Shown here in pieces: positions 557-52,917 of a stretch of DNA of 64,000 nt. The stretch comes from Rapana venosa. Lineage: Eukaryota > Mollusca > Gastropoda > Neogastropoda > Muricidae. The translations under genes and the position numbers were made by a program. Within the stretch, counting starts at the first letter, position 1. Each line of letters opens with the position of its first letter. The notes beneath the pieces are model-generated. The model was not told where the DNA came from. It did not search any database and saw only the letters and a program-made list of their open reading frames with translations. The stretch is from positions 44,958,421 through 45,022,420 of the forward strand of contig CM054155.1 in the NCBI GenBank assembly GCA_028751875.1, written 5' to 3'.

Positions 557-3500
557 GTATGGTGTCGTCCTTCTTCTCCCTTTTCCAGTGTTGTTGTTGT
601 TGCACTCATAATTTGGCAGCCTTTGTTAATGCTACTGATTTTGTATTGCTCATTCTTCGTTTCTTTTGTTAATGCTATTTTTGTTTGCCCCCTTTTTTGT
701 TGTTGTAATGATTTTATTTCTGTTGCTAGATGATGATTAGGATGGTGATGGTCCATTGTTGTTGTTGTCATGATTGTTACGTTCTTAGATGATGATGATG
801 GGGGCTTATAGTTGTGGTGGTTCAGTCTTATTATCTTTGTTGTTATGATTGTTATTATTGTTATTATCATACCTATGTTTTTAAATGATTGTGATGGTGG
901 TGGTGGTTGGTTATTTCATGACAGTGGTTTGCTTTTCTTTTGTGCGTAGAGCTCACAAATTTGTCAATAAAGTATGTGTGTTTTTATTGCAAGAATAAGT
1001 AAGAAAACATTCTTATCACATACGTGAATGTTTGCTGAACATGAGCCTAAATACCTCTAAACCTGCTGTACCCCCAGAAGCTTTTGCATACCCATTCAAC
1101 ATTTTTCATTTTCTCTTAAAAAAAACAAACCACCCTCAAACAAACAAAAATAAACATGAAAAAGCTTCGTGGACGATACTAAAGTTTCAGCATGCAGTTT
1201 TACGCTCTCTGTGTTCTCAGGACATGACGTCACGTGACCTTCTACAACAGCGAACCACTCTGCCCAATGGGGACACCGTGTGGCGACCTTCACCCCTGGT
1301 CACAGCAGCACTGGAGGGCAGTTTGGCCGTGCTGGATGGCGTCCATCGCATCAACCCTGGATCCTTCTCCGTCCTGCACAGGTCAGCTGGTCATGGTCGT
1401 CTTGGACTTGATCTTGTCAGCGGGGAGTATCATTCTGCCCCTGTGCTCAGCGGTCTTCATTTACACCTGTAGTAGGAAGGAGGGTGGCAGGATGGTTATT
1501 AAGACGTTCGCCTGCCAACAAACAAATTGTGAGATTCTGGGTTCGATTCCCAGCCTCGCCCTAGTTTGACCACCAAAAAAATTAAACTGAATGTCAAAGT
1601 CCTTGGGATGAGAGTAAAAAATGTGTGAACATATAGAGAACATCTTGCAAACACATTAAAAACCTGTTTCGCCTTTTGGAAGAGTAGGCCATTGTGTGCT
1701 GGTAGGAACGGATGGAAAAAAAAACAACCCAAAACCAGCGTACACATAGGTGTCATGTTTGACACAATCCCCAAAAGGGGAATGTGACTAGCTAATTGGG
1801 GCGGGGGGGGGGAGGGGGACTGCACAAAAAATCTCAAAATTGCTTTAAGAAAATAATTCAATCCTTTTCTTTTTGTCTGTAGTTTTCCTTTTTACTTTTT
1901 TTTGTTATTTTGTTGGTTTTTTGTGTGTACTAATTGTTTTAGTTATTAATTCAGTTATCTGTCATGCATCTGGAAAATGTTTCTCTTTATAGATCTCAGA
2001 TTTGTACATGTAGGGTGTGAAAGTTAAAGGGTCGTGTGTGCCTTGTTTTCTTTTTAAAAGCATTTTTGTAAAAAAAAAAAGTTTTAATGTTATACTTTTA
2101 AACTTGTGTTTTCAGGATAAGGAAAGTAGACATGTCTCACAATGCACAAATCCAGCATAACTCAAACCAAGGGTCCAGTGCTAAAATTAGCGCACCCCTT
2201 CCTCTTAACCAGGTCCAAGTGTGGTCAGCTCCTGCTATCATCAGCGCTGGTCAGCTGGGCTGGGCTGGAATGGATAGCAGCTGAAAGCTGGGGAAACTGA
2301 CGTCTGTGTGTGTGTGTTGTTGTTGTGTGGACAGGCTGATCAACGAGCGAGAACTGCAGCTGTTTGACGTCTGTGTGTGTGTGGGTGTTGTTGTTGTGTG
2401 GACAGGCTGATCAACGAGCGAGAGCTGCAGCTGTTTGACGGAACACGGCTGCTGGGGGCAGAGCGCTATGAGGGCGTGAAGGAGGAGACGGGGCTGACCG
2501 AGGGCCAGCTGGCTGACAGTGAGTGAAGTCTGCACTGCACTGCACTGCACCGTACTGTACTGCACTGCACTGCACTGTACTGCACTGCACTGCACTGCAC
2601 TGCACTGCACTGCACTGCACTGTACTGCACCGTACTGTACTGCACTGCACTGCACTGCACTGCACTGTAGGTATGCAGGCAGGCAGTAGGCAGGAAGCCA
2701 AGTAGGCATACAGCAGGCATGTACACATACATGCTTGCATGTACACACACACACACATGCGTGCGCACACACTCACTCACCCACACGCACGCACGCACTT
2801 ACACACACACATACACACACGCTAACACACATACTCTCTAACACACACACATTACATACACATACACACACATTGTGTGCCGGTGGGAGCAGATGACAGA
2901 ATTTACAAAAACGCATACACACGGGGACTGGATGTAAAAAAGCACATAAGCGCTTATTCCATTATCCTCGATATAAAAGAATAAAATAAATAAATAACAA
3001 ATAAAGAAATACATACACTCTCTTTCTTTTCTTTCTCTCTCTTCTCTCTCTCTCTTTCTCTCACACACACACACACACACACACCCCACACACATACACA
3101 AACACTCAAAAACTTGCACACGCCACTGTATCGTAACTAAGGCAAACATTTTTAATTATATTTTTTCTACACATAAGTATTTGTATTCATATTTTTCTGT
3201 GCAGAAATATGTTTGTTCACATTTCTTGTCTGCAAAAATATTTTTGTTTGTATTTCTTCTCTGCAGAAATATTTTTGTTTGTATTTCTTGTCTGCAAAAA
3301 TATTTTTGTTTGTATTTCTTCTCTGCAGAAATATTGTTATTGATATGCTTGTAATTATTCATATTCTGTGCAGAAATAGTTGTATTCATGTTTTTCTTCT
3401 ATGGGAATATTTATTTTAATGTTTTGTATGTGTAGATTTTTTTTAACAGATATTCCTATTTTTCTTGGTAGAAATATTCTCATTCATATTTTTTTCTCTG

Positions 3501-5055
3501 CATAGATATTTTTATTTTTCTTCTCCAGATTATTTTCATTCATAATTTTTCTCTGCTGAGATATCTTTATTCATATTTGTCCTATCCAGAATTGTTTTTA
3601 TTCATGTTTTTATCTGTGGAAATTTCTTTTTCATATTTTGCCTCTTGATAATAATAATTTTCAATTTTCATACTTTTTCTTTACAAAGATATTTTTGGTT
3701 TATAATTTTCTTCTCAGCATAAATATTTTAGTCCAGCAGGTGGACAAAAATCTCGAACAGTCTTAGGTTCAATTCCACCCCAACATACACACACACACAC
3801 TCTTCTCTCTTGTTGTCTATATTTCTCTCTATTCCATCTCTCTCTTCTTCCCTCCTCATCACCCTCTCTCCTCTCTCTTCTCTCTCTCTCTCTTTATATA
3901 TCCCTAAGGGCGGGGACTGGATGTAAAAAAGCACATGGGTGCTTATTCATTATCCTCGAAATAAAAGAATTTGTCATTGTCATTGTCACTCGCATTAAAT
4001 AAATTTTCTTCTTAGAAAAAAAAATGTAACTCTGTTTCTCTGCCGAACTAATTTTCACTCTTTTTTTCTTCTTCTGTGCAGGAATATCCTTCCCATCCAC
4101 CCGTCGTTCCGCATCGTGGCGTTGGCAGAGCCCCCTGTGGTGGGCAGCAGCAAGCAGCAGTGGATGTCGCCGGAAATGCTGACCATGTTCCTCTATCATC
4201 ACTTACGGCCCCTGTCCCGAAAAGAAGAGTTCAACGTCATTGCAAAACTGGTTCGTTTTGTGTGTGTGTGTGTCTGAAGGGGAGGTGTGTGTGTGTGTGT
4301 GTGTGTGGCTAAGTCTGTGTGTGTGTGTGAGTGTGTAAGCATGTGGCTAAGTCTGAAGGGGAGGTGGGTGTGTGTTTGGAGAGGGGAGTTCATGTGGTGT
4401 GTGTGTGTGTGTTTGGTTTTTATATTCTTTTATTTGATATGCAAAACCTTTCTGAACCACAACCCCACGCGCACACACACACGCACTTATTATTCCGTTA
4501 TCCTTGAAATGAAAGAATAAAAAGAAAACACACACACACATTATTACCACAGAACATCTTGCGCACACGTTAAAACTTGTTCTGCCTTTTGGGAAAAAAG
4601 GCCTTTGTGTGCCGGTGGGAACGGATGACAAAGTTGACAAAACTGCATGCACTTTTGGACTAAATGTATATAAAAAAAAAATTTAACAAGCATATGAATG
4701 TTTATTCATTATCCTCAAAATGAATTGAAGATTTAAAAAAAAATTCACTCATAGATCAAGGCTCACAAAAAAAAAAAAAATCAAGGCTCACATTCATACA
4801 CAGATACAACGTTTTGCCCTGTGCAGAACAATCATATTTTTAAGCATTTGTGTTCTTGTGTAGATATTTTATATGCTTGATAATTATTATTATGAGATAA
4901 TTATTATTATGTCTGTTCTTCTGTCTGACAGGTGCCCAACATTCCTGATCTTGGCAAACTCTTTGACTTTGTTCACAAGCTGAGAGACTCCAAAGATGGA
5001 ACGGTCAGTGTGTGTTTGTGCGTGTGTGTATGTGTGTGTGTTTGTGCATGCGTGC

Positions 5056-5087
<32 letters not shown>

Positions 5088-8000
5088 GAGTAAGTGAGTG
5101 AGTGAGTGTTTATAGATTTGTATATATTTCTTTGATTTGGTATGATTGTGTGCATTTCTGTGATGGATTGGTGTTCTAGAGGTAACGCGCCTGCCTAGAA
5201 AGCGAAAAGTCCCGGTCAGAAGTGTGCGGTGGTTTGATCCCCGTTTGGACCCGAAACTTTTTCCCCATCCTTTAGACCATGAGTGGTAGTCTGGGCGTTA
5301 GTTTTTCGGATGAGACAATAAACCGAGGTCCCGTGTGTTAAACAAAAATTATTTAGCGCACATCAAAGAACCCACGGCAACAAGAGAATTGTCCCTGGCA
5401 AAATTTTGTAGAAAAAAGCCACTCTGATAGGGAAACAAATGTAGTTGTAGACAGAAAAAAAAAAATTGGTGGCACTGCTCTGTGGCGACACGCTCTCCCT
5501 GGGAAGAGCAGCCCGAATTTCACGCAGAGAAATCTGCCGTGACTTAAATTGGTATAAATATTAAAAAATTAAATAAAATGTGGCTTGAATATACACATGT
5601 GTTTGTGTGTATGTACAGTTATGTATCCATGCTTTGCTTTTTATGCATACTTGCAAGTGCACACACATTTGTGTACTTGCACAAAATATTCAAAGTAGCA
5701 ACATCAATAACAAAATCTAAACAATAGAGAAAAACGAACACAGAACCCCTTACATATTCCTAAATTCTGCAATATAATTTTTTTTTTTTTTACAGCTGAC
5801 AAAAACAACAATAGAACAAAAAAACAAGCACAAAAGAACCCTAAACATTCAGGAACATAATACAATTTTTGGTTATAATTTTTGTACAGCTGACGTCTTT
5901 AGCAGCGTCGTTTTCAACACGGCAGTTGCAGCGCATCGCTCGCCGCCTGACCAACTACCCAGGGGAAGATTTGAACGCCATCCTGCACAAAGCTTGCCTG
6001 GCCAGGTCAGATGAGGCAATATCCTCTCCACCTTTATTGTCCTGTGTGGGTTTGCTAGATGCTTTGGCTGGTTCTATCTTAAAGGCTGTGTGTGAGTGTG
6101 TATGCGTATGCATTTCATTTGTTTCTGTATGTGTGTATCGCATACACACATGCATGTTTGTGTAATGTGTGTAGAGGTGTGTTTGTGTGGTGGGTAAAAT
6201 ATTATTGCATCTTGTATTTGCGATAGGGTAACCATTATTGCACTTTGTATTTGCGATGGAATATCATTATTGCACTTTGTATTTGTGATAGGATAAGCAT
6301 TATTGCTCTTTGTATTTGCAGTTGGTCATGGTCAGGTCAGAGACTCCCTCTGCTACTGGTAACCATGTAACCCAGTACCACCTGCCACATGTGGGGAGTA
6401 AACCCAACCCAAAAATCCGACCTGGAGAGGGATGGGCTCCGCCAGGTTTGATTTGCCCAAGATACACCAATGACAAAGACAGCCAGAATCTCCATACCGG
6501 ATCGGTCGTCGCCCGGGTTACCAAGGACCGCGCCTTCTGTTGCTCATCAGGACAGATGTCGAAAGTATGCTACTGATGTAAAACGCAGCAAAATTCGTGC
6601 CAGAAACAACACCATCATTGGCACATGGAATGTACGGACACTAAGAGCTGCAGGCAAAGTGGAAGAACTGACACATGAGATGTCCAGATATCAATGGCAC
6701 TACTTGGGCTCTGCGAAGTCAGGTGGAAAAACATGGGAGAAACAACGACCGGGAAGACCACAAATTATACTACAGTGGAAAACAGGATAAATATGAACAC
6801 GGCGTGGGTTTTCTCGTTCACAAAGACACCGTGAACACCGTCATGAGCTGTCAGCCTGTGTCCAGCAGACTTATTACCATCCGCCTGAGAGCAACCCCCT
6901 TTAACATAACTGTAGTACAGGCATACGCCCCTACATCAGACTGCACAGATGAAGCCGTAGAAGAATTTTATGACCAGTACAGGGGTTCTGAATCAAACAC
7001 CCAAGAAAGACATCCTCGTTGTGCAAGGCGACTGGAACGCCAAGGTAGGAGAAGATGCATGGAAAGACTGGGAGGGCGTTTGTGGGCCACATTGTAATAA
7101 CCAATCAAATGAAAGAGGCTTGAGACTCCTGGAGTTTGCCCAGTAACAACCCTCCAGTTAGTGAATACACTTGGCCCACACAAGAAATCCAGAAAATGGA
7201 CATGGCATAGCCCAAATGGAGAACACCACAACCAAATAGATTACATCATGGTGAAAAGACGGTTTCAGTCTAGCGTTAACATCGCACAGACACAAAGTTT
7301 TCAGGAGCAGACATAGGGAGTGATCATGATCTTGTGATGATGACTTTCCGACTACGTCTAAAGAAAATCCACAAGCGGAACAACATCAGGATCAAATTTG
7401 ACCTCGAGAAGTGAAGGACCCAGAGGTATTAGAAATTTTTCAAGCAAGGATAGGTGGAAAGTTTGCAGCACTCACTGTGATAGACTCAGACATAGATACA
7501 CTGACGAATAGTTTCAATACAGCGGTGACTGAAACAGCAAACGAGCTTCTTGGCAAACGCCGACCAGTCAAAAAACCATGGGTCACACCTAACATCCTAC
7601 AACTATCGACAAGTGTAGAGAGTTGAAGAAAAAGAAAAATGAAACAAAAGAAAGAGCAGAACAATATAGGGCAGTCAACAAAAGAATCAGGAAGTCCATG
7701 ACGGAGGCAAAAGGAAATGGATCGGTGAACAGTGCCAAGACATTGAAGAGAACATCAGAAAAACAATAGCAAGAAAGCATATCAGCTGGTGAAAGACCTG
7801 ACTAGCACGAAACAGAGAAAAGGTTTAACAATCCAAGACAAAAATGGGAAGTGTCTCACTGACGACCAGGATATTCTGAACAGATGGACAGAATATGCTC
7901 CGACCTGTATAACTATAGAACCGCAGGAGATCCAGAAGTCCTTAATGTACCCGACAGCAAAGACACAGACAGTCACCCTATCCTCCGAGAAGAAGTGGAA

Positions 8001-11000
8001 ACAGCAGTCAGATCGCTGAAAAGGGGAAGTCAGCAGGGGCTGACAACATTCCAGCTGAGCTGGTCCAAGCTGGAGGGGAAGCCATGATCAGCGCCCTACT
8101 AAGAATCTGCAACAAGATCTGGCAGACAGGAAAATGGCCAACACCATGGACGCAGTCACTCATCATCACCCTCCCCAAGAAAGGAAATCTACAACAATGC
8201 CATAATTACCGCACAATCAGCCTCATATGTCACCCAAGCAAGGTCATTGCTGCAGATAATATTGAATAGACTGAAGCCACAAGCAGAGACCATCATTGCT
8301 GAGGAACAAGCAGGTTTCAGAGCAGGGCGCAGCACAACAGAACAGATATTCAACCTCAGAATACTATGTGAGCGATACCCTTTAACATCAACAAGACCTT
8401 TACCACGTATTTATCGATTTTAAGAAGGCATTTGACAGGGTGTGGCATGCAGCTTTGTGGGCAACCATGAATTTGTACAGCATCAATGCAAACCTGATCA
8501 GAGTCATCAAACAGCTGTACAGCGAGGCCACCAGTGCAGTGTACTACAACAACAACATTGGAGAATGGTTTCGAACAACAGTTGGAGTAAGGCAGGGCTG
8601 TCTACTCTCACCACTCTTTTCAACATCTTCCTTGAGAGAATCATGGCTGATGCACTGGAACATCATGAAGGATCAGTCAGCATCGGTGGCAGAACGATCA
8701 CAAACCTCCGCTTCGCAGATGACATTGATGGAATAGCAGGATCAGAAAAGAGCTTGCCAGCCTAACAGAACACTTGGATAAGGCCTCCAAAACATACGGC
8801 ATGGAAATCAGTGCAGAGAAGACCAAACTGATGACTAATAACACCAACGGCATTAGCACTGATATCAGGGTTAATGACCAGAAGCTGGAAACAGTTCAAA
8901 GCTTCAAGTACCTGGGAGCCATTGTATCCGACCAGGGATCCAAGCCAGAAGTAGTATGCAGGACTGCACAGACAATAACAGCTTTGTCAAAACTAAACAC
9001 CATCTGGAGAGATAAGAATATCTCACTTATCTCCAAGATCAGACTAATGCGCTCCCTTGTCATATCCATATTTCTGTATGCCTGTGAATCATGGACCCTG
9101 ACTGCAGATTTGGAGAGAAGAGTACAGGCAGTGGAGATGAGATGCTTTCGGAGACTCCTTGGCATCTCCTACAAAGACCACATAAGCAACGAAAGCGTGC
9201 ATAACAGAATCCAGCAAACCCTTGGACCCTATGAGAACCTTCTAACGATCGTGAAAAAGCGTTAAACTTAAGTGGTATGGCATGTCACAAGATCCCAAGG
9301 AATTACAAAGACAGTTTTGCAAGGCACTGTCCAAGGAGGAAGAAGAAGAGGCAGACCAAGGAAGAGCTGGGAGGATAACATCAGTGAATGGACAGGCCTA
9401 GAACTCAACAAAACCCTGAGAAAGGCAGAACAGAGAGAGGAATGGAGGGAACTGGTTGCTGAGTCTTTGAGGGTGCCCCCACGGTCGTCAGACTACGGGA
9501 CAGATAGATAGATTTGCAGTTGATTAATTATTATTGCACTTTGTATTTGCAGTTGATTAATTATTATTGCACTTTGTATTTACAATAGAATATCATTGTT
9601 GCACTTTGTATTTGCAATAGAATATCATTATTGCACTTTGTATTTGTGATAGGATAAGCATTATTGCACTTTGTATTTGCAGTTGATTAATTATTATTGC
9701 ACTTTGTATTTGCAATAGAATATCATTGTTGCACTTTGTATTTGCAATAGAATATCATTGTTGCACTTTGTATTTGCAATAGGATAATCATTGTTGCACT
9801 TTGTATTTGCAATAGGATAATCATTGTTGCACTTTGTATTTGCAACAGGATAATCATTGTTGCACTTTGTATTTGCAATAGGATAATCATTGTTGCACCT
9901 TGTATTTGCAATAGAATAATCATTGTTGCAATTTGTATTTGCAAATAGGATAATCATTGTTGCACTTTGTATTTGCAATAGAATAATCATTGTTGCAATT
10001 TGTATTTGCAAATAGGATAATCATTGTTGCACTTTGTATTTGCAATAGGATAATCATTATTGCCTTTGCAATAGGATTATCATTGTTGCACTTTGTATTT
10101 GCAATAGGATAATTATTGTTGCATTTTGTATTTGCAATAGGATAATCATTGCACATTTTTGTCTCCTCCTCTCTCCTCACTGGGTCAGGTTTCTCCCTCG
10201 TCTGGCTCGCTCTGCTCTGGACCAGACGCTGAACGAGACAGGAATCGTTGAAAGTCAGCAGGACACAGGACTTGACAACTATGACAGCGCTGTGACATGT
10301 GAGTGCTTTGTTTCCTTACTGAAAGATGGTTGGTTTCAGGTTTTTTGTGTTGTTTTTTGTCCTTCCTCGGCTAGACCTCCAAGGTTCACCGATGGTGAGA
10401 TTTTTGTGTATGCAACCATTCCCTCCTACCACCCCCCATCATTTAGGCAGCTGCATTCCGACTTCAGGGATGGTGTCTAAACATGACACCCAGTGTGTAT
10501 GTGTTTTTTATTTTGTCTTCCATTCCTCCCAGCACAGAATGGCCTACTTTTCTGAAAGCAGGAGCAGGTTTTTAATGTGTGCACAAGATGTTCTGCATGC
10601 GCATACACACAGGGCTTTGATTTATAGTCTCATTTGAAGAACTTTGACATTCAGTTCAATCAATGTCAAACCTCCCCTGGGAGAAACATGACAAAAAAGG
10701 AATAAAAAGAAGAAACTGGGAAGAAAGGGCGAGGCTGGGAATCAAACCCAGAACCTCTCAGTTTACTTGTTGGCAGGCAAACATCTTAACCATCCTGCCA
10801 CTTTCCTTCTCTGTTATTTCATTTGAGTAATAAAAGAACAGAAAAACCATCACCTCCACCAACCGATCACTTTTATCTACTTACCCTGCTACAGACACTT
10901 TCAGATCATCACGTCATGTTCTCTTACGTCATAATGAGCAAAAAGGAATGATGCTGCACTGTTTGAGGTACCTCACATGATGAAGATGGTAAAGGTGTTC

Positions 11001-19635: not shown

Positions 19636-22600
19636 CACATCCAGTGTGCACTAAAATCTCACAGTGATTCCCAGGTGGGATGAATGAGTCAAAGAGCATA
19701 ATCTGGGTGACACCCACAGTGTTAAGGTGGAGAACTACAAACAACTTTACAGTTCAAGCTAGGTGGAAACATCTCTAAGAAGGAATGATAGCTGGTGAAA
19801 GTAACCACAAGACTGCAGAAAGTATATATTTCCATTACAATGATAGAGTAAGATAATCTTCATCGTGATTGTATATGCTGTTGTCATCTGTAGCTGCATG
19901 AAATTGTATGTTATTGTTGATGGTATGGTATAGTCTTTAAGTATGCTAGTAGTTTGTCATAGTACATTATTGTTGATCGTATGATATAGTCTTTCATTAT
20001 GCTAGTAGTTTGTCATAGTACACTATTGTTGAACCGATACAGAGTGGACCTGCCCAAGTTTGAGGTGGTTGGACAGTGGTCGGTGGCCAGTCAGGGTTTG
20101 CGACAGAAGACCGCTCTCATGCAGCTTCCCGTGCAGACGCGCAGACTACAGGTCAAGGTCAGTAGACAGGATCGAGGTGACAGCCCTGATAGGGCTTTCA
20201 TGGTCAGTAGGGCTGTAGACAATATGAAAGGTAGACAGGAGCTCTATACACAACAGCTAAACTCACTCAGCAACAAATAAAAAACCATCGATAGCGGAAC
20301 AAACCAACAGTGAACAACGCCACAGATGCCTTGTAAAGGATAACTTGACTAGAGTCAACAGAACTAGACATTTGCATTGTCCCACATTCAGGCTGTTGAC
20401 AGAGAAAGAACAGAAACAAAATCTTGGATCACTATTTTTTTTTTGGTAGGGGGGGTACTGGAAACGGAGCAGAAAAGGTAGGGAAGGGTAGTGGATTGCC
20501 TAATGGGGATTTAGGGTGGGGGCAGAATAGCCAGTGGTATGCGTGTAGATTTAGGATCTGATGGTGACTGACGGCTTGCCTGAGTCTCCTGTGAAGTGTC
20601 TGTCAGAGAGGATTTTTATCCTGGACTGACATCACTTTTTAACTCCGTTCTCTTGCAAGTTCGCCAGGTGAGACTGAGGTACCATGTGTGAACACGTGCG
20701 TGACTCTTGCACATGCATAAAAAACACACCTGTCTTTTTTGAAAGAGAAAACCAAGTATAGTCAGTGTCGTGGATGATACAAACACCCCCATCATTCAGC
20801 CTGCAACATGGAGAGGGATGGGCTCCACCAGATTCAAGCAGTTTGAAAATTGTTAGTATAGTGCCCCAGTTGTTACGGGAGAAGTCAGACCTGAGGAGTG
20901 TGACATGGTGTAGAACACAGTTCTTTGCAGTCTCCCAACACTACTGTGCAAAACTTGAACTGACATTTTTTTGTTTCTTTGTTGTTGTTTTCTTCCCTAT
21001 TCTTGTTTTATTTTGAGGATAATGAAATAAGCACTTGTGTACTTTTTTACATCAAGTCCCCGTGTGTACACACTTTTGTAAATTTTGTCGTCCATTCCCA
21101 CCGGCACACAATGGCCTACTCTTCCAAAAAGCATAACATGTTTTAACAGGTGTGCAAAATGTTCTGTGTGCATTCGTACATGAGACCTTGGTTTATAGTC
21201 TCATCCAAAGGACTTTAGGGGTGGAGTGGAGTTGGTACTGATGTTAACTCCAGAGGAAAATATCCCCTTGAACGGGATTCAAACCCGGGTCAGGAGATTA
21301 CAAGCACAGTGGGCAAAACTGTAACCAACCAGGCCATCCTGTCCCCCCTCCCATCCCCTATTTGCAAACTCCTAACACTACTATGCAAAAGTTGAAACTT
21401 TTAAACAAGGCAGTGTGTTTGTCTTTTTGCTAGTTGTTTGTGTATACGAATATTTTGAGATAGTATATTTGTTTACATGTGTTTGTCTTTTTGCTAGTTG
21501 TTTGTGTATATGAATGTTTTGAGAGAGTATATTTGTTTATATGTGTTTGTTTTTTGCTAGTTGTTTGTGCATATGAATGTTTTGACATAGTATATTTGTT
21601 TATGTGTGTTTGTCTTTTTGCTAGTTGTTTGTGTATATGAATGTTTTGAGAGAGTATAATTATTTGTTTATGTGTGTTTGTCTTTTTGCTAGTTGTTTGT
21701 GTATATGAATGTTTTGAGATAGTATATTTGTTTATGCGTGTTTGTCTTTTTGCTAGTAGTTTGTGTATATGGATGTTTTGAGAGAGTATATTGTTTATTT
21801 TCTGCTACATCCAGGGTCCTGTGCCTATGTACCTGTCTCACAAAAAGCTGGACCGCACGGAGACCAGAGCGTCTGTGTTCACGGAGCAAGAGGCGTACTG
21901 GAGCCTGCCTCTGGAGGAGAGCAATATCGTGTGTGACGTTGCTGTCAGCAGAGGTGGGCTGTGGGGTGTGTCTGTGTGTGTGTGTGATTGTAAAGTGAGT
22001 GTGTGAGGTGTGAGGGGTAGATGTTTAGGAGGATGGAAGTGTGAGTGTGTGTGTGTTTGGTGTGTGTGTGTGTGGTTGTGAAGTGAGTGAGTGTGGTGTG
22101 CGTGCATGTGGTGTGTGTTGTATGTATGTATGTGTGTGTGTGTGTACATGTGTGTGTGTGTAAGTGTGTGTGTATGTTTCCATGCATGATACATGCATGT
22201 CTGCATGGTTACATGCATATGTGTTTTTAGTGTAGAGTAGTGTAATGTTCTGTGGGGATTATTTAATTTTCAAATCCATGACAAATACCTGATGGAAAAG
22301 AAAACCCTTGTGGGGGCTTAGTAGGCGGTGTACCAGCTCAGAACAGGCAGCACTGCACACCACTGAAGTGACCCAGCAGCGGTGTAGAGTATGTCATAGC
22401 TAGTTGCCTCTTGGCAGCCTGATATTGTAACTCCCTGTGATCTCATGCAGGAGGGATGTGCCCTAGTGTGGCTGTGTCATTGACATCTGAATGAGCAGTG
22501 TGAAAACAGTGACAGGTATATCACTAAAGGTAAGGCAGCAAAAGGAAAGAAATAAAATCAAATGAAATTTTAAAAATATTTTTAAAAAGGAAGAGGTAAC

Positions 22601-25347
22601 CCCCCACACTTCCAAAAATAGGAATGTTATACCCCTTTCCAAATAGCACATATTTCTAGCATACTTCTTTTCATGGTCAATTTTTTTTTATTAACAGAGG
22701 ACCCGACAATAATTTATAAAAAATAATATCATATTCCATCAAAAATACATCTAAAGAAAGAATAACTTTCTTCTCTCTTTCGCTTTACACCATCAGATGT
22801 GTCAGGGGAAAAATAATGGCTGTATGTCCTTTCTTTCCAGCTCCTGCAGTGGTCCGCACAGCTTGGTGGTGTGCAGTGTTACCTGTGTCAGAATAACAAT
22901 AATATAAACACCCTGTGTGTTGTTCTTCAGCTGCAGATCGAAGCCCGGGCCAGAACAAGCATGACATTGTCCACGTGGCCACAGCCAGCCCCATCTGTCT
23001 GTACAGCGTCAACCCTCGCTCCAGTGCCTGCAACGTCATCGACCTGTACGACGTCTTTCCCTCCACTGCCGGTGCCTACCGGCCCCGCGTCAAAATCACG
23101 GCCCTGGGAGCCCCCATGGACGATTCGGTCGTCATGCACGAAGAAGTGGTGAGGGGGTCGGAAAGAAAGGGGTGGTGGTCGTGGTTTGAGTGTTGTGGTT
23201 TTTAATGGATCAGTGTATATTTATTTATTTATTCTTTTATATCGAGGATAATGGAATAAGCACTCATGTGCTTTTTTACATCCAGTCCCTGTGTGTATGC
23301 AGTTTTGTAAATTTTGTCATCTGTTTCCACTGGCACACAACGGCCTACTCTTCCAAAAAGTGGAACAGGATTTAACGTGTGCGCAAGATGTTCTGCACGC
23401 GTTCGAACACGGGGCCTCGGTTTAAAGTCTCATCTGAAGTGTATAAATTCGTACAGATGATACAGTTGACTTCAAGAATTGGAATGTATGCAGAGGGAGC
23501 TAATTACGTGACAGGTTTTTTAACAAACTTTTTCCGTTTTTTAATGTTATTTTCCTGTATCCTGCATGGGCAATCAACCCCTGAAAGAGTCTAATCAAAG
23601 TCATTCACAAAAGACTGATCTACCTAACTTTGGAAGTTGATTTGTTGTTTATGTGATTTTTTAAATTTCCAGCCCTAAAGGCATTTACACTATGTACTGT
23701 TTTCAAAGAGTTCGCACAAGCAAATAGAAACATATTCATGGTTTAATTTTCAAATCATCAAAACAAAATTATTGACACAAACATATGGCATTCACAGGCT
23801 GAGTTCATTTTAGGTTTGGAGACTCTTTTTTTTTCTGAAACTCTGTGAACAGTATCTGCAGATAATACTCAGGGTTTTTTTGTTTGTTTGTGTGTCTGTG
23901 TTTTTAATCTGTTTGGAGGGTGAGGACATTGAGAACATGCTTTTTTCAGTCTCTGTATCTTTTGTTTGAAAAACAGTAAATGATACATGTATGGTTTGAC
24001 CAGCTAACAATAACACAAAGTTGATTTTGGTCCTCGGCTAGAGCTACAAGGTTCACTGCTGGTGAGATTTTGTGTATGTGATGGTTTTTTCCCTCCCATC
24101 ATCAAGGTAGCCACATTCCCACTTCAGGGACACATGGAATATAAAGCTGATTACTATGTTATAAACCAACCAGCTCAAAGTGATGATAATCTATACACCT
24201 CACAGCTCGTTAGAGCCAATTTGGAGGTCAACAGCCCTCTCATTTCAAAATAAGCTTCGGATCTACAACACCAATGTCAAATCGGTCCTACTTTATGGCT
24301 CAGAAACCTGGCGGGTAACAAAAACCAACACCCACAAACTCCAGTCTTTTACCAACAAATGCCTCAGGTACATCCTCAACATCAGGTGGCCGGAAGTCAT
24401 ATCCAACAAACAACTGTGGGACAGGACCAGACAAACCCCAATTGAGTCCACCATTAAACAAAGGAAGTGGGGATGGATCGGCCATACACTCCGCAAGCCT
24501 GCGTCAAATGTCACCAGACAGGCCCTTGACTGGAATCCACAAGGGAAGCGGAAAGTTGGTCGACCAAAGCAGACCTGGCACAGAAGTGTTGACGAAGAAA
24601 CGAAGGCAGCCGGAATGACATGGGCCGAGCTGAAGAGGATCTCCCAAAACCGAGTTCGTTGGAGGGGTGTTGTTGCAGCCCTATGTTCCCCAAGGAACCA
24701 AGAGGCATAAGTCAAGTCACAGCTCGTTAGAAAGGTCGTCTTGTTAAAAACAAAAAGAAAATCTACAACTTAAACTTTCCCCAAATACCAGAAAGGTGAT
24801 TTAGTTTTCTGACAGGAAAAAGTAGTTTTGATCATGTAGGAATAAAGATCATGGTGTGTCAACATTTTTTAAGCTTAATTTCTTTTTTTTTCTTTTTTCT
24901 GATATAAAAAAAAAGAAAGCTGTACTGAGGAAATTGTAGTGGAGGAAAACATACATATATATATATATATATATATAAAAGAAAGGTTTGAACTAATTGA
25001 TATGTTACAGACCTGTGTAATTTGCACAATTTTGTGTTTATTTATTTCCATTTTGTCAACACAGAGAGAATCTGTGACAGAGTGATAAGTTATCGTTGAA
25101 TGTTCTTAATTATTGTTTATCTGTTACATACTATGCTGTGAGCTCTTGTTTGTTATGAAGTATTTTAAAAGTTGTCATTTGTTACAGAATGGGTTGTGAG
25201 TTGTGTTGCTTTCTGTTACAGACCAACGTAGTTCTGATGGTGAACGTGGAAAATGGAGAAATCACTCGTCTGCTCAGTGAAGGTTTGCCAGAAACACCGC
25301 CAGAGAAACGTCGATTCACCACCGTGATGCCCCAGATCAAGGTTTGT

Positions 25348-27590: not shown

Positions 27591-30500
27591 TTGTGTGTGT
27601 GTGTGCGTTGTGTGTTTGTGTGTTTTTGTGTATATGTGAGTGTGTGTGTTTGTGTGTGTGTGCGTGTGTGTGTGTGTGCATGCCTGTTGTTGTTATTGTG
27701 GGGTCTGTGTGTTCATGTATTTCTTTTATTTATTTTATTCCTTTATTTCAAGGATAATGGAATAAGCACTCATGTGCCTTTTTACACCCAGCCCCTGTGT
27801 GTATGTGATTTTGTAAATTTTGTCATCCATTCTCACTGGCACTCAATGGCCTACTTTTCTGAGAAGCGGAACAGGTTTTAACGTATGCACAAGATGTTCT
27901 TTATGCATTTGCGTGCAGGACCTCGGTTTATAGTCTCATCCGAAGGACTTTTGGGGGAAGAGGGGAGTTGGCATGATGTTAACTCCAGAGGAAAAAATCC
28001 TCTTGAATGGGATTCAAATCCAGGTCAGCAGACCACAAGCGCAATGCGCAGTGCTCTGACCACCAGGCTATCCTGTCCCCCTGTGTGTGTGTGTATGCGT
28101 GTGTGTGTGTGTGTTCTCACATGCATGTGCTTATAGGTGTGTGTCTGAGTGAATGTATGGATTCGTGTATGTGTGTTTTGATGTGTATGAAGATATATAT
28201 GTATGTTGCAGCTGCCAATTACTGATATTTACAATGCCTTTGTTGCCCTGATTAGAACCATTCTCTTCTGTTATTTTGAATAGAAAAAAGGTTTTCTCTT
28301 TTTTTGCAGATATTTTGATTTTTGTTGTATTTTTTTAACAGTTAACTCAGTTGAAGTCATTTTAGCCTTTGTTTTTCTATTTGAAGCATTTTTTTGGACA
28401 TGATTGTGAGTCAATAAATGAAACTTCCTTCACAAAGAAAAAACATATTCCTTCCCAGCCCCACCCGCCCCTCAAAAAAAAAAAAGAATGATGAATACTT
28501 TTTTGTTTTTGGCACTATACTGAACATTTGCACTGGATATTGACTTAAAAGGAAAAAAAAATGTGTTGCAGCAAATACTTGATGGAGAGAAAAGCAGAAG
28601 ACGAGTTTGTGCTGAAGCCTGTAACAGAATCAGGAGGTGAGTGCAAGAAGCACCTGGAAAACCTGGTATCAGTTATATCAGTTAACGTCCCCAGGGTCTG
28701 TTAGAAAATACACTCTGTCTCACTTCATCCTACCTGGGAATCCCGGTGAGGCTTTAAGCAGACTCTGGATGATAAATTAGCAAGTATGATTGGTTTTATG
28801 CGTGTGTGAATGCAGACCACATCATAAAAAGAGCAATGAACTTCGTAGTGGATGGAAAGAGACCAAAGGGAAGACCTAGCAAAACCTGGGCTACCTGTTT
28901 TGCAGATGATCTTAGAGAAAGGGGCATAAATAAGGAGGAAGCTCCAAACAGAGAGAGATGGAGAAGGCTCATCAATGTCAAACCTCCCCTGGAAGAAACA
29001 TGACAAAAAAGGAAGAAGAAGAAGATGTGAATGCAGAGAGTCAATGACTCTTCTTCTTTGTCGAACGCTCAGACAGCAACTATCACTGTCTGTTATATGA
29101 GCGAAAATGCGTCATGCTGCTGTTAAGTGCCTGACCCAGCGTATCCGACTTTGGCATAAGAGAGAATTGTCAATAATAATAATAATAATAATAATAAATG
29201 GAATTTATATAGCGCTGTATCTTGCAAAAACAAATCAGAGCGCTTTCATTCATCCTACTCATTTACATGCAGCCAGTTACGATTAAATTCAAATGTACAC
29301 ACACACGCTCGCACGCACGCACGCACGTACACACACACGCACATAAATGTTGTACACTCCGCAGGGTGATGGGATTTTGGCTGTTGAGGGCAGGACAAAA
29401 ATGACTCAAGGAGTTACAGGGAGAAGGGAAGGCAAGACAAGAAAGATGTGTGTGAAAGTGCGTGGAGCTGCAGACGTTGAAAGCCGTGGCATTTTTCTGC
29501 GGCCTTACAGGTTGTGGCATTTTTCTGCGGCTGATGCAGGTTGTGGCATTTTTCTGTGGCTGATGCAGGTTGTGGCATTTTTCTGTGGCTGATGCAGGCG
29601 GCGGCATTTTTTTTCTTTCTGTGGCTGATGCAGGTTGTGGCATTTTTTTTCTTTCTGTGGCTGATGCAGGTTGTGGCTTTTTTTCTCTCCGGTGGCTGAT
29701 GCAGGTTGTGGCTTTTTTCTCTCCGGTGGCTGATGCAGGTTGTGGTTTGTTTGTTTTTTCCGGTGGCTGATGCAGGTTGTGGCTTTTTTCTTCTTCTGTG
29801 GCTGATGCAGGTTGTGGCATTTTCCTGTGGCTGATGCAGGTTGTGGCATTTTTTTTTCTGTGGCTGATGCAGGTCAGCATTTTTCTTTGGCTGATGCAGG
29901 CTGTGGCATTTTTCTGATGCAGGTTTCGGCCCCATGAAGATTACCCAGACGACCACGTCCCCGATGTCGGACTCTGTGCTGAGCAAAACTCTGGACCAGA
30001 AGATCAGTTCTCCCAACCGTCTGGCCGTCACTCCCGACAGCTACGCCTCCATCGCTGTCGGATTTCCTGACCTGGTGAGTTGCTGAGCTTTTGTCACAGG
30101 TCAATGAATAAAGCGAAATGAAGTGAAATAGGAGAAGTAAGTTAAAGCAGAATGAATAAATAAGGTGAAATAAAATAAAATAAGATAACATGAACTAGAA
30201 TAGAATAAAGTAAAATAAAACAAAAATGAAATCAGAAAAAATGAAATAAACATTTTTGAAAAAGAGCAGAAAACAAACAAGAACAAAATTCAAAGTATAG
30301 TAAAATCTATACATCATTTTCATGTTTCATTTAAGTTTCTTAATTTCAGGACATTCATGTTCTGTAATGTTCTCTGTGGTTTTATTTAATTACTGTAATT
30401 GAATGGAGGTTTATTTCATCACCAAGAAACTGTTCATTTTTTTAAAAGTATACAGATATTATTTTCTATAACACTATCAGAGAGAGCGCACACACATACT

Positions 30501-34000: not shown

Positions 34001-37000
34001 GAGAGCGGGCGTGACCACGACAACATCGACCTGAAACACGGAGAGGTGGATCCCCAGAACACGCCGCATGTTGGAGGGGGGAACTGGGCAGGAGGCACAG
34101 GTACGTCCACTGGGGTCACAAGGATGCCTGACCTACTGCACACCCCACAGTGCACAAACCCATCATCACACAGTCAGTCAGTCAAAGAGTGCTGAGCTTA
34201 GCGCACCCCTTCCTTTTACCAAGTGTGGGGGTCAGTTCCTGCTGTAATGAGCACCAGCTGGTCTCAGCTGGGTTGGACTGGACAGCAGCTGAGAGCAGCT
34301 GAATGTGGGGAAAACTGACAGCTGTGACTCCGGTTCTTTGGGTTCATCTCAGAATGCATACTTGGTCATTTTGTGTGACTACTTTAAGTGGTCGGGGATG
34401 GGGTGGTGGTGGTGGGAGGTAAAGACTAGTGGTCAGAATGAATGTCACACTGCTGATTTTTTGGTAACTGTGAGGTTGAGGTGTTGTTTTAAGATTTGGG
34501 GGGAAGATTTTTTTTTCAACTTTCTGTTTCCTAGATAGTTTTTCAGAGGAGACCATAATTGAAGGTGCTGTGTGTGAGTGCTTGAATAACATCTTACACA
34601 CTTGTTAAACACCTATCTACCTTTTATAGAAGAGAGCTCGCGTGTGTGACTGACTGCTTTCAAGAGATTTACCATATAGGCAGCCATGCTCCAGCTTCAG
34701 AGGGTTCTGTTCTCCTTTTAAAGCAGAGTGCGTGCGGGTTGTTGCGCTTAGAGCTGGTCATTGCTGAAGACAGTCTCAGGATAAAATGTTAATGCAGGTC
34801 TCTGCACTTGGCTTACATCAATAACTGACTAAGCTTTTGGCCTGGGCCAAGTCGTGAGTGAGTGAAAAATAAAAATAATAAAATAGAAAATGAAAGTCAT
34901 CATGAGTGAAACATAAAAATAATAAAATAGAAAATAAAAGTCAATCATGAGTGAAAAATAGTAATAATAATAAAATAGAAAATGAAAGTCAATCATGAGT
35001 GAAAAATAGTAATAATAATAATAAAATAGAAAATGAAAGTCAATCATGAGTGAAAAATAGTAATAATAATAATAAGATAGGAAATGACAGTCACCATGCG
35101 TTGCTGTTGCAGGGGGCAGTAACACGGCCGGGCTGGGAGGGTTTGGAGGACCGTACCGTCTGGACGCTGGTCACCAGGTGTTCCAGGTGCCGGACTGGGA
35201 GAAAGAGGCCGTGCCCCAGCATGTAAGACTGACCGCTGGTCATGGTACACAGTACAGTACAGTGGTGAATGATGATTTACTGCATGTAAGGCTGACCGCT
35301 GGTCATGGTACACAGTACGGTGGTGAATGATGATTTACAGCATGTAAGACTGACCGCTGGTCATGGTACACAGTACAGTACAGTGGTGAATGATGATTTA
35401 CAGCATGTAAGACTGACCGCTGGTCATGGTACACAGTACAGTGGTGAATGATGATTTACAGCATGTAAGACTGACCGCTGGTCATGGTACACAGTACAGT
35501 GGTGAATGATGATTTACAGCATGTAAGACTGACCGCTGGTCATGGTACACAGTACAGTGGTGAATGATGATGTACAGCATGTAAGACTGACCGCTGGTCA
35601 TGGTACACAGTACAGTGGTGGTGAATGATGATTTACAGCATGTAAGACTGACCACTGGTCATGTGACACAGTACAATGATAAATAATAACTCATAACATA
35701 ACCACATACACAATAGGACTGGATGTTAAAAAGCACATCGGTGCTTATTCCATTATCTTTGAAATAAAAGAATATAAAAAAAATCAAATAAATAGATAAA
35801 TAAATAAAATACAGTGCAGTGGTAAAAAGCTGATTGACAACATGTTTGATAGACAGCTGGTCACACGCTGTCAGAGGGGGTGCAGACTAGACACTACATC
35901 CTGAATTATCGTCCTCAATCCACCTGAGGCCACAAACTGACAACAGTGCTTCTTATGATTATCACTCTGGACAAAGACTTTCAGACTAGTTGAAAGCTGA
36001 CACAGAGAGCCAATTTGTCAGGGTTGCAGATGGAAGGATTCATGTTTATTGATGACGTTTTGTTGTTTGTTTGTTCTGATTACTGATGCCTTGAATCTTT
36101 TTCTCTCTTTGTTCCCTTACTGGTTTTGGTGCATAGTGCCTGGTTACATCATGTGTGTGTGCGCTCGCGCATGTGTTTGTGTGTGTGTGTGATTTTATTT
36201 TTTTGGGAAGCCATGGGGTGCATAGTGCCTGGTTACATCATGTGTGTGTGTGTGTGCGCTCACGCATGTGTTTGTGTGTGTGTGATTTTTTTTTTTAAAT
36301 GGAAGCTGTCTTGGAATGTTTATACCAATTTGAAATGTATTTTTCTTGTGGCTTTTGAGATAATTATACGTATCAATGTGCCTGTCAGTATTGTAATTGC
36401 CCTTCATGGGATGATTAAAGTGTTTTTGACTTGACTTGACCTGGTCTTCTCCTGTGCTTGTCATTTTGCTGGAGGTCTGCCTGCTGACCTCACCCAACAC
36501 ATTCTGACTTAAGAGCAGCTCATTTCATTGTACAGGCTGCATGCTGGGTATGTTCATGTCTCCATAACCCACCAAAGCCTGGCATGTAATACAGGATCTT
36601 TAACGTGCATATTTCATCTTCTACATGTGTATATACACGATGTGAATGAAGGAATTGGGAGATCGTAAAAGTCACCACACTTGCTTCACAAGACACTGCG
36701 GGGATTCGAACCTGTAACTTCATGGACCCAAGGGATTGAAGCCAAGTGGTTTTAACCACTCAGCCACAGCGTCTGCCTGATGCCTGGAGTGTTGTTGTTT
36801 GTTTGTTATTTGTTTGTTGTCTGTTTGTTTGTTATTTGTTTGTTACTTGTTATTTGTTTGTGCAGATCACAGAGGCAGCTCGGGCCATGGCTCAGAAGGC
36901 CTACAGGGAAAGGTCAGTTGTAGTGTAGAGGGCTTTTTTCTTCTGGTTCTTTTGTGAAAGTGATTGGTAGATTGTGTGTGTGTGTGTGTGTGACAACAGC

Positions 37001-38501
37001 TGCCTAGGAAGTCTGTCTTCAGTATCAAGCTGCGTGTGTGGTGTGTGTAGTGTGTGTGTTTTGTGTGTGTGTAGTGTAGTGTGGTGTGTGTGTGTGTGTA
37101 AGTGTGTGTGTGTGTGTGTGACAACAGCTGCCTGGGAAATCTGTCTTCAGTATCAATCTGCATGTGTGTATTGTGTGTAAGTGTGTGTGTAAGTGTGTGT
37201 GTGTGTGTGTGTAAGTGTGTGTGTGTTTGTGTGTGTAAGTGTGTGTGTGTAAGTGTGTATGTGTGTGTAGGAGTGATGTATCATGTAAATAATTAGAGGT
37301 TTGCTGTATACCTGATTTTGTCACCCATTTATATGAATGTAATGCAAGTGATCTATTTTATTGCTCAGAGAAATACTTAAAGTGTAGCATATAGAGGAAC
37401 ATTTCTGCCTTTAAAAAAATCACAGTGGTGTAGGGTTTTTTTTGGTTGTTTTTTTTTTCCATTCCTTGGTTAGAGCTCTGAGGTTCACCAGTGGTAAGAT
37501 TGTGCATACACAACCATTTTTACCCACCATGAAGCTAGCCCAACTCCAACTTCAGGGATTGGTTTAGGTTATGACAATGGAAGCATGCTTAATGAATAAT
37601 GTAACTGCTGAATATATGAGAGCCGAAAGTAGCCACAAAGTAATATCAGAACGTTTGGCCCTGGCCAGAAGATTTTATCAGTTATTGATGTCGGTCATAT
37701 GCCGAGGCCTACATTAAAATGTTATCCCTGAAGTCGGAATACAGGTACCTTAAGAATGGGTGAAAACGATTGCATACTCAAACTTTTACCATAGGTGAAC
37801 CTCAGAGCTCTAGCCCTCTCCCCCCCCCCCCTTCCCCCACAAGAAAAACAACTGTTGTAACGCTTTAAAACACTATGTAAAATTGTCTTCAGCCATGACA
37901 AGCTCTTTTCTTAACAACCTGTGCTCTCCTTCGAAAGAGAAAAAAAATCATCTGAAGCTGAAGTATAGCTGCCTGTGTATCAAGGTGCTTAAAAACAACC
38001 ACACACTTAAACTTTTCATGCCAAAAACCCCCAACCCAACAACAACAAAAAACATTTTTTTTAAACCTCTTCATACAGTATGATACAGTCTCACAGTCAT
38101 TCTCAGGTGTGGGATGAGTGAGACAGAGTGCACATTCTGGGTGATAGACCCCCAGGGTGTTAAACTGGGGAACGCCCGACATATATCAGAACATGATTGG
38201 GTTTTGGTTTGATTTGTCAGACAGAAAGATTGCCACAGACTGGTCAAATGCATTGTTGTTTCAGACTGCGGGAGATAGAGATGAGTGAGTTTGATGGAGA
38301 AACCTACGAGAAGTTTGCTTCCAGCGTGCGACGTCAGGTTCAGTCACTGCGAGTTATCTTGGATGCCCTGCAGGTGGGTTATCTCTCTTTGTAAGTCTTT
38401 CTTTTCAGTAGTTCGTAGGGTTTTTGTTTTCATGTGTGTGTAGTTGAGGGTGTGTGTATATTTACATGCATGTGTGTGTGTGTGAGTGAGTGAGTGTGTG
38501 T

Positions 38502-44734: not shown

Positions 44735-45785
44735 GGATGACGGCAGGGGGAGGGGGGTATTTGTGCTGTGCTTAATGCATTCTGCAAAGACAAACTATTA
44801 TTCTGGTCAAGTTCTTGATGCAACGACCATGAAATCTCTTTTTTGCCCTCACTTCAACTCTCCTGCAAAGGCAATCCCTCTGCCTGCTGTCCACAGCCAC
44901 TCTGAACTTTCTGCTATATTCTCTTCATTCTTCTCTGACAAAGTCCACAACATTCGCTCCAGACTGGATCAGACTCTTTTCCACTCTGCGCCTCCTGATC
45001 CCCTATTCACTGGCATTCCTCTTCTTTTCTTTCATCCAACAAGTAAGAAAGAAATCAAGACAATCCTGAATAAAATGACATTAAAATCATGTGATCTTGA
45101 TCCTATGCATGCTTCCCTTTTCACTCAGTGCCTTCCACAGCTTATACCCACCATCACAAACATTGTAAATTCATCACTTCTTTCAGGAATTTTCCCAACA
45201 GCTCTCAAAACTGCAATAGTTACACCTCTACTCAAAAAGCATGACCTCGACCCTAACATTCTGAAGAATTACAGACCTGTTTCTAACCTACCGTCATCTC
45301 TAAAGTCCTTGAAAAAGTTGTTCTGAAACAACTCAACAGCCATCTTCATTCCAACAATCTCCTTCCCCTTTTTAGTCTGCCTATCATGTCAATCACAGCA
45401 CCAAGAACCACCCTAAACCACACAGTCTTTCTCTGTTTCTGGTCCATCGATCTGGAATGACCTCCCTCTCTCCCTTCACCAAAAACCTACTTATGACAAT
45501 TTTAAATCCAGCCTCAAGACATATTTATTTCAGACCTAAGTTCCCCCCCTCTTGTTTCATCTCATTTCTGTCCTTGCTCTCAACAGTCAAAACCCCCATC
45601 ACCCTGCCAAAGTGTATGGCCTCTATGAGTGTGCATGCGTGTGTGTGTGAGTGTGTATACATTTGAATTGGTAAAAACTTTTAATTGAAACACGATGCAT
45701 GTGCAAGAGTAGAATGAATGCAAGCGCTTTGATTTGTTTTTGCAAGATATAGCGCTATATAAATTCCTTTTATTATTATGATGTG
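44735..45785 (+). mobile_element. Internally deleted LINE with RT N-terminal part and 3' tail
   Basis: An open frame of about 195 codons contains FFSDKVHNIRSRLD, TLKSCDLDPMHASL and PTALKTAIVTPLLKKHDLDP, then NYRPVSNLP, the RT entry region of CR1/L2-like LINEs. After 45380 it jumps to a domain end (LPLSPFTKNLLMTI-like). The catalytic core is missing. The tail reads GCAAGATATAGCGCTATATA and TTATTATTA. Confidence 0.8.
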
Positions 45786-52800: not shown

Positions 52801-52917
52801 CTGGGAAAGATCACAGAGAGAAAAGGGTAGAATGAGGTGGCTGATGTACTTGATATAATTATGAGTAAGAACATGTGCTGGTGTATGCGTGCACATGCAT
52901 GGGTGCACATGTGTATA

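Follow-up and report, generated by a model that had tools for sequence, protein, structure and literature searches.

A minisatellite repeats the 3' splice site before an exon of VWA8 in the snail Rapana venosa

VWA8 and the array before position 29923

The DNA analysed here, referred to as the window, is a stretch of 64,000 nucleotides from Rapana venosa (contig CM054155.1 of assembly GCA_028751875.1, positions 44,958,421 to 45,022,420 of the forward strand), and positions are counted from its first letter. It carries VWA8 on the forward strand. Spliced alignment to the VWA8 protein of Babylonia areolata placed 32 introns in the window, and the coding exons, once joined, give an open frame of 1456 amino acids with 91–92% identity to the VWA8 proteins of Nucella lapillus and Babylonia. 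Ten further coding introns, one of them doubtful, were called upstream of the window, so that the exons numbered 21 and 26 in the initial annotation, labels that are right for a count within the window, correspond roughly to exons 31 and 36 when the whole gene is counted. The introns range from 307 to 4183 nt and the exons from 47 to 239 nt, except for one doubtful call of 447 nt. One junction upstream of the window (65138/65750 of the joined region) is probably wrong, with a frame change in the exon, and was retained in the counts. A coding exon some 5 kb upstream of the window (about 5090–5140 of the upstream piece) has an apparent frame change, reading ..LDPPSGRGFRPGMFILFRS against LRSRFQARDVHPLPF in Babylonia, which is possibly a small assembly error in the form of a 1-nt frameshift. 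Fragments of non-LTR retrotransposon reverse-transcriptase open reading frames, named by eye from the sequence and its translations, lie in VWA8 introns at 6290–9510, 24165–24707 and 28830–29005.

The array lies between the exon at 28572–28636, which has its donor at 28637, and the 152-nt exon at 29923–30074, which has its donor at 30075; the positions of both come from the spliced alignment with the Babylonia protein, and that of the second from the protein alignment as well. TRF reports an array at 29486–29916 with a period of 29, 13.5 copies and a score of 321, and a second, overlapping row at 29580–29874 (period 36, score 357). The full array, 29484–29922, comprises 14 units of 23–37 nt, the last of which (29900–29922) holds the true 3' splice site, with its AG at 29921–29922. 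The 13 upstream units (29484–29899, forward strand) are 27–37 nt long, and their CAG ends fall at 29510, 29539, 29568, 29597, 29633, 29669, 29704, 29738, 29775, 29810, 29839, 29872 and 29899. Twelve of them end in CTGATGCAG, the first bases after the AG being 29540, 29569, 29598, 29634, 29670, 29705, 29739, 29776, 29811, 29840, 29873 and 29900; the earliest ends in CCTTACAG, with 29511 as the first base after its AG. A stray CAG within the array has its junction position at 29878, 5 nt beyond 29873. The hexamer TGGCTG is present in 11 of the 13 upstream units and absent from the true-site unit, in which the pyrimidine tract is consequently nearer the AG; tract length differs from unit to unit. 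The TRF array, the table of units and the homology-placed junction bear out the claim of the initial annotation that a minisatellite repeats the 3' splice site before this exon. Its count of twelve extra copies is correct for the CTGATGCAG ends and becomes thirteen extra units once the CCTTACAG unit is included; similarly, its statement that the units are the same as the true acceptor applies to the 12 of 13 with the common end, but not to the first unit, nor to the hexamer that the true site lacks.

The spliced alignment places the true junction at donor 28636/28637 and acceptor 29922/29923. The spliced peptide there reads ..TESGGFGPMKIT.., and in an alignment of 16 VWA8 proteins, 15 of them assigned to gastropods, none has an insertion or deletion of three or more residues within 10 residues of the junction; gaps of 1–2 residues occur near it in 6 of the 16. 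On this evidence from sequence the position of the junction is firm, and we infer from protein homology that the acceptor at 29923 is the one used.

The segment from −40 to −6 relative to 29923, made up of most of the last unit and the end of the one before it, aligns to the other units with a score of 58, against a shuffled mean of 15.6 and with none of 400 shuffles as high. On the exon side, the 8 bases that follow the CAG match the start of the exon at 6 of 8 positions in nine of the 13 upstream units, at 5 of 8 in three and at 2 of 8 in one, although the units are copies of each other and the match therefore counts as one observation, not nine. A match of at least 6 of 8 is found at 0.64% of 779 other intronic CAGs. 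As the exon part of the unit at 29923 is at most 6/8 identical, the spanning of the boundary is weak on the exon side here, whereas it is clear-cut at 2406 and 35222. The AG-free stretch before the true site is 23 nt, and it is as short or shorter at 20 of 88 junctions (29923 included), and so is not unusual.

One unit of the array, at 29840–29872, is followed by a strong donor-like CAG/GTCAGC (score 9.73) and could act as an in-frame microexon of 33 nt. The 50-nt intron that would be left between this microexon and 29923 is probably too short.

Strength of the copies and outcome of a wrong choice

When a position score is trained on the remaining 31 acceptors in the window, the upstream unit ends reach 7.7–11.2 against 9.33 for the true site, and 5 of the 13 lie above it. 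The median real acceptor, left out of the training, scores 6.7, and the unit ends rank in the top 0.2–1.9% of 2352 intronic AGs. A score built from 83 acceptors of three genes gives 8.1–10.6 for the 12 matched copies, all of which keep the AG, and 9.3 for the true site; the CCTTACAG unit is unmatched at 6 mismatches of 16 and hence lies outside these 12.

The comparison was extended to seven boundary arrays in VWA8, KCTD3 and PRPF8, described in the next section. All 67 in-phase copies found in them keep the AG or GT, with the qualification that copies were located by similarity (up to 6 mismatches of 16), and those lacking AG or GT are harder to detect; 17 out-of-phase matches in the 50-bp array of KCTD3 are excluded from the 67. 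The true site is equalled or exceeded in score by 48 of these copies, from which it follows that strength alone does not mark the true site in most of these arrays. PRPF8 is an exception, its true site being the strongest of the array (12.1 versus 5.8–10.8). In every one of the arrays the true site is the copy that adjoins the exon, as the protein requires.

What would result from the use of an upstream copy was read by joining 15 AGs between 29480 and 29900 to the preceding exon: the AG that ends each of the 13 units, that of the stray CAG (29878) and one before 29484. The intron has 68 more AGs upstream of this interval. A premature stop is reached 14–170 nt past the junction in all 15 cases, including the three in which the frame is kept. 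Joining at the copy 23 nt upstream of the true site puts the exon out of frame, with a stop 35 nt beyond the junction, just as the initial annotation had anticipated, and its contention that the exon-proximal copy is needed for a normal protein holds against all 15 AGs tested in this interval.

In NAGNAG sites and other closely spaced tandem acceptors, the rival AGs are separated by 3 nt, or by as much as about 9 nt. The VWA8 array is like them in setting several competing AGs before one exon, but its spacing is 23–37 nt, each copy has a pyrimidine tract of its own, and most copies shift the frame while all those tested meet a stop; only the stray CAG at 29878 comes closer, following 29873 by 5 nt. 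In poison exons and other alternative splicing coupled to nonsense-mediated decay, use of the wrong site gives a premature stop. The upstream copies of VWA8 would be alike in this respect at each of the 15 AGs tested in 29480–29900.

A branch-point model for the choice of site was considered and rejected. AGs within 12–15 nt of a branch point can be bypassed (PMC1431707), and, as read from the sequence, every CTGAT precedes the AG of its own unit by 5 nt and that of the next unit by 28–42 nt, so that it could serve the next copy. The geometry thus fits the model, but the enrichment test failed: the CTRAY motif shows no excess upstream of the other 31 acceptors (found at 1, versus 10.5% of controls), and a loose branch motif is near the control level (16 of 31 versus 44.8%).

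Arrays at other splice junctions

Two further arrays in VWA8 span a splice junction. At the donor of the exon at 35113–35222 (exon 26 of the initial annotation), a 58-bp unit is repeated over about 35217–35675 (7.7 copies by TRF), with eight GTAAG donors on the forward strand; the first copy is the true donor, 35222/35223, and includes the last 6 exon bases. The parallel drawn earlier between this donor array and the acceptor array is a sound one. At the acceptor at 2406, a 71-bp segment made up of the intron end, the AG and the first 35 exon bases occurs twice on the forward strand (2305–2440), with the true junction at 2405/2406 and its copy at 2334/2335.

The second donor of the donor array, at 35285, scores 7.4 against 6.6 for the true donor. 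Its use would add 63 nt in frame and free of stops (35223–35285; 21 amino acids, VRLTAGHGTQYSTVVNDDLLH), and the six donors beyond it run into a stop.

Other VWA8 arrays, all on the forward strand, abut junctions from the intron side. A 56-bp array (19911–20032) stops 10 bp before the acceptor at 20043, a 64-bp array (21413–21798) stops 16 bp before that at 21815, and a 51/99-bp array (34859–35093) stops 20 bp before that at 35113; the segments −40 to −10, −40 to −16 and −40 to −11, respectively, align to the array unit. The 31-bp arrays of CTGCAGAAATAT units at 3190–3638 resemble the acceptor at 4082 (..CTGTGCAG/GAATAT) but are 444 bp away from it and make a weak case (shuffle P 0.0075), and the array before 10189 is unlike its acceptor (P 0.38). 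A predicted VWA8 protein of Nucella lapillus contains two 30-residue imperfect tandem copies, at exon starts that match 13007 and 32979 (junctions 12651/13007 and 32671/32979). Judged from the predicted protein, these duplications, which are at other VWA8 junctions, look as acceptor duplications would if they were translated as part of the exon; they could also stem from the assembly or the gene predictor.

The arrays recur in two other genes of the same genome. A genome search with the array DNA returned the array itself and at least one other place, on contig 4, which is also an acceptor array and belongs to KCTD3. An exon of that gene begins, at 45709 of the joined region, where a 28-bp array of 19 copies ends, and the core GGCTGATGCAGG is common to this array and that of VWA8. 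Having been picked by similarity, it is a biased find; it lies outside the span of the clustering test given below and is not among the five KCTD3 arrays of that test. The same gene has a 50-bp array of 18 copies at the acceptor at 43984 and a 44-bp array of 10 copies at the donor at 37823. At 1138–1701 and 2862–3195 of the KCTD3 piece L014, on the reverse strand, exons of the gene follow long acceptor-type arrays, one of these arrays having the common core. In PRPF8, which was chosen before its sequence was seen, a 22-bp array overlies the acceptor at 52835. Both types of boundary are thus affected, with acceptors at 29923 and 2406 and a donor at 35222 in VWA8, and a donor at 37823 and acceptors at 43984 and 45709 in KCTD3.

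Boundary-spanning arrays occur at 3 of 42 introns in VWA8, a count that includes 29923, where TRF stops 6.5 bp short, and, relative to the junctions kept, at 1 of 32 in PRPF8 and 3 of 14 in KCTD3. In KCTD3, 14 of the 16 junctions called were kept; in PRPF8, 32 of 33 were kept at an alignment score of at least 100, among them a doubtful one at 79218 with an acceptor ending in AAAG. Among TCP1/CCT genes, six of 47 exon hits were read, picked among the better ones with their open-frame lengths known and so not fully blind. TRF arrays span a junction in none of the six, and in three (L038, L039 and L040) a non-simple array starts or ends, by eye, about 30–45 bp from the junction.

The region is very rich in tandem repeats, with 119 TRF rows in the window. 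A first clustering test on hand-picked TRF rows (17 and 12 arrays) was replaced by a selection by rule, which takes arrays with a period of at least 20, a score of at least 80 and a self-match at periods 1–6 below 0.6 and drops those that are microsatellite-like; placements allowed either no overlap with exons (strict) or up to 40 nt (permissive). Over the whole VWA8 gene, a junction is no more than 25 bp away from 6 of 14 arrays, where 0.70 would be expected under strict placement (6 reached in 0 of 5000) or 1.71 under permissive placement (P 0.0054). Within 15 bp there are four arrays against 1.45 expected under permissive placement, which is borderline (P 0.053), and the strict overlap of arrays with junctions, 2 of 14 against 1.04 under the same placement, is not significant (P 0.28). 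For VWA8 and PRPF8 together, the expected number within 50 bp is 2.55 or 4.01, and the 11 of 27 arrays observed there were reached in 0 and 1 of 3000 placements; strict overlap under permissive placement (3 against 1.94, P 0.31) is again not significant. Of the 13 arrays of PRPF8 alone, four come within 50 bp of a junction, where 1.15 or 1.65 would be expected (P 0.019 or 0.07); one comes within 25 bp, which does not differ significantly from the 0.74–1.27 expected. A self-copy test on 64 junction-spanning 37-mers of the window was negative (6 of 64, against 13.5% of 1500 random intron points, at a score of 34), and the microsatellites that fill the VWA8 introns are the likely explanation.

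Origin of the arrays and choice of the splice site

Minisatellite-like duplications of intron–exon boundaries are known in amphioxus as mirages, in Adh3, the globins BflGb6 and BflGb9, PGBD5 and troponin C, and the suggestion there is that regular splicing goes on undisturbed by them (PMC3087553, PMC3902484). The VWA8 array shares their features, being a minisatellite-like tandem array in which the authentic boundary is one copy and splice signals are present in the copies. As far as those sources go, the mirages of amphioxus and the arrays of the snail alike consist of tandem units over the exon–intron boundary, at 5' and 3' sites, with AG or GT in many copies and the array adjoining the authentic site. 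The snail differs in being a caenogastropod mollusc, in having up to 18–19 copies and three boundary arrays in one gene, and in having additional arrays that abut junctions without spanning them; moreover, splicing behaviour and instability have been examined in amphioxus, whereas the snail is represented here by the sequence of one assembly. No report of mirages in molluscs was found in the open-access literature searched, and the available portions of gastropod papers on Conus introns (PMC3862624) and on abalone (PMC6905558) describe no boundary-spanning repeats. Intron 3 of a TSSK1-like gene in abalone contains, according to the same portion of the latter paper, a 27-bp minisatellite whose copy number differs between individuals (PMC6905558); it is alike in being intronic and in having a unit near 27–29 bp, and differs in not being described there as touching a splice site. 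What is apparently new is the occurrence of mirages in a mollusc, with three in a single gene and with a strength that in most copies matches that of the true site. Routes to new introns by tandem duplication have reportedly been set out by Rogers in 1989, by Zhuo in 2007 and by Gao and Lynch in 2009. In those routes, as here, a duplicated splice-site segment supplies new sites; they differ in that the snail copies lie within an existing intron, and no new intron or exon is seen.

We consider it likely that the array before 29923 is a mirage, that is, a tandem duplication of the boundary segment which has grown into the intron and of which the exon-proximal copy is chosen by exon definition. 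The segment first duplicated would have taken in the last 25 or so bases of the intron, 3' splice site included, together with some 8 bases of the exon; unequal exchange or slippage would then have extended the array into the intron. Such a duplication would be tolerated because one intact boundary remains beside the exon. The spliceosome would pick the exon-proximal copy, most likely because exon definition, acting through contacts that bridge the 152-nt exon and through the enhancers of that exon, gives the advantage to the acceptor closest to the donor at 30074. The upstream copies would be spare sites, whose use would lead to premature stops and presumably to decay. The intron and exon sizes of VWA8 given above fit with exon definition. 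A transcriptome study reports that, where introns are long, preference goes to the sites that are nearest to each other across the exon; in the human data of that study, however, the preference for upstream 3' splice sites in long introns is reduced and not reversed, which counts against a choice made by exon definition (PMC9225289). Recurrence at other VWA8 junctions and in other genes suggests a mutational process rather more than a device particular to VWA8.

Other origins of the array can be weighed against this one. An ordinary intronic minisatellite might look like an acceptor merely through its T-richness and its CAG end, and the abundance of TRF rows, the negative self-copy test and the imperfect exon part of the unit at 29923 would all suit such an origin. 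It is nevertheless unlikely, for the true junction is itself the last unit, exon bases lie within the sister arrays (35 at 2406 and 6 at 35222) and the arrays are concentrated near junctions. Misassembly of a repeat is harder still to credit, and we regard an artefact of this kind as very improbable: the units vary in sequence and length, the exons on either side are intact, and independent loci, on contigs of 57–87 Mb, show the pattern again. The 30-residue duplications in the Nucella prediction speak against an artefact as well, unless they are themselves a product of assembly or prediction, while the possible coding frameshift 5 kb upstream of the window hints that residual errors do exist.

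The copies might alternatively be kept as a switch, such that choice of an upstream site yields nonsense transcripts and lowers VWA8 output. This regulatory reading of the array, put forward in the initial annotation, is unproven, and we think it very unlikely. The early stops that it draws upon are to be expected whenever intron sequence is read, and the likeness among units, seen in their acceptor-like scores and in the AG kept by every matched copy, would be expected from homogenisation without selection. Arrays of the same kind are found at acceptors and donors of unrelated genes, and the suggestion of harmlessness made for amphioxus in the available text (PMC3087553, PMC3902484) also weighs against it.

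A wider proposal can be made, which is tentative and to which we give a little less than an even chance. Boundary-spanning minisatellites would be a genome-wide feature of the snail lineage and not a cephalochordate oddity; duplication would repeatedly start at splice sites, and the spliceosome would routinely pick among near-identical sites by position alone. Some copies may leak into proteins, as the Nucella duplications suggest, and would be a running source of new exons or introns. Were the arrays genome-wide in gastropods, mirages would represent a recurrent mutational process near splice sites, in place of an amphioxus curiosity, and a candidate route to new exons and introns. The seven boundary arrays, in which 48 of 67 in-phase copies equal or outscore the true site, separate splice-site strength from position in natural genes. 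The set amounts to a series of natural competition experiments on the choice of splice sites by position, in which RNA-seq could test across-exon preference directly.

Two observations on the TCP1-family genes were made in passing. In L040 (489–807), a 29-bp array of 10 copies starts about 33 bp after the donor, and its diverged first copy seems, by eye, to take in the donor GTGAGTGTGG. On contig C6 (48383965–48387318), four exon hits share a single open frame of 1166 amino acids; the intervening introns appear to be free of stops and are possibly long in-frame arrays.
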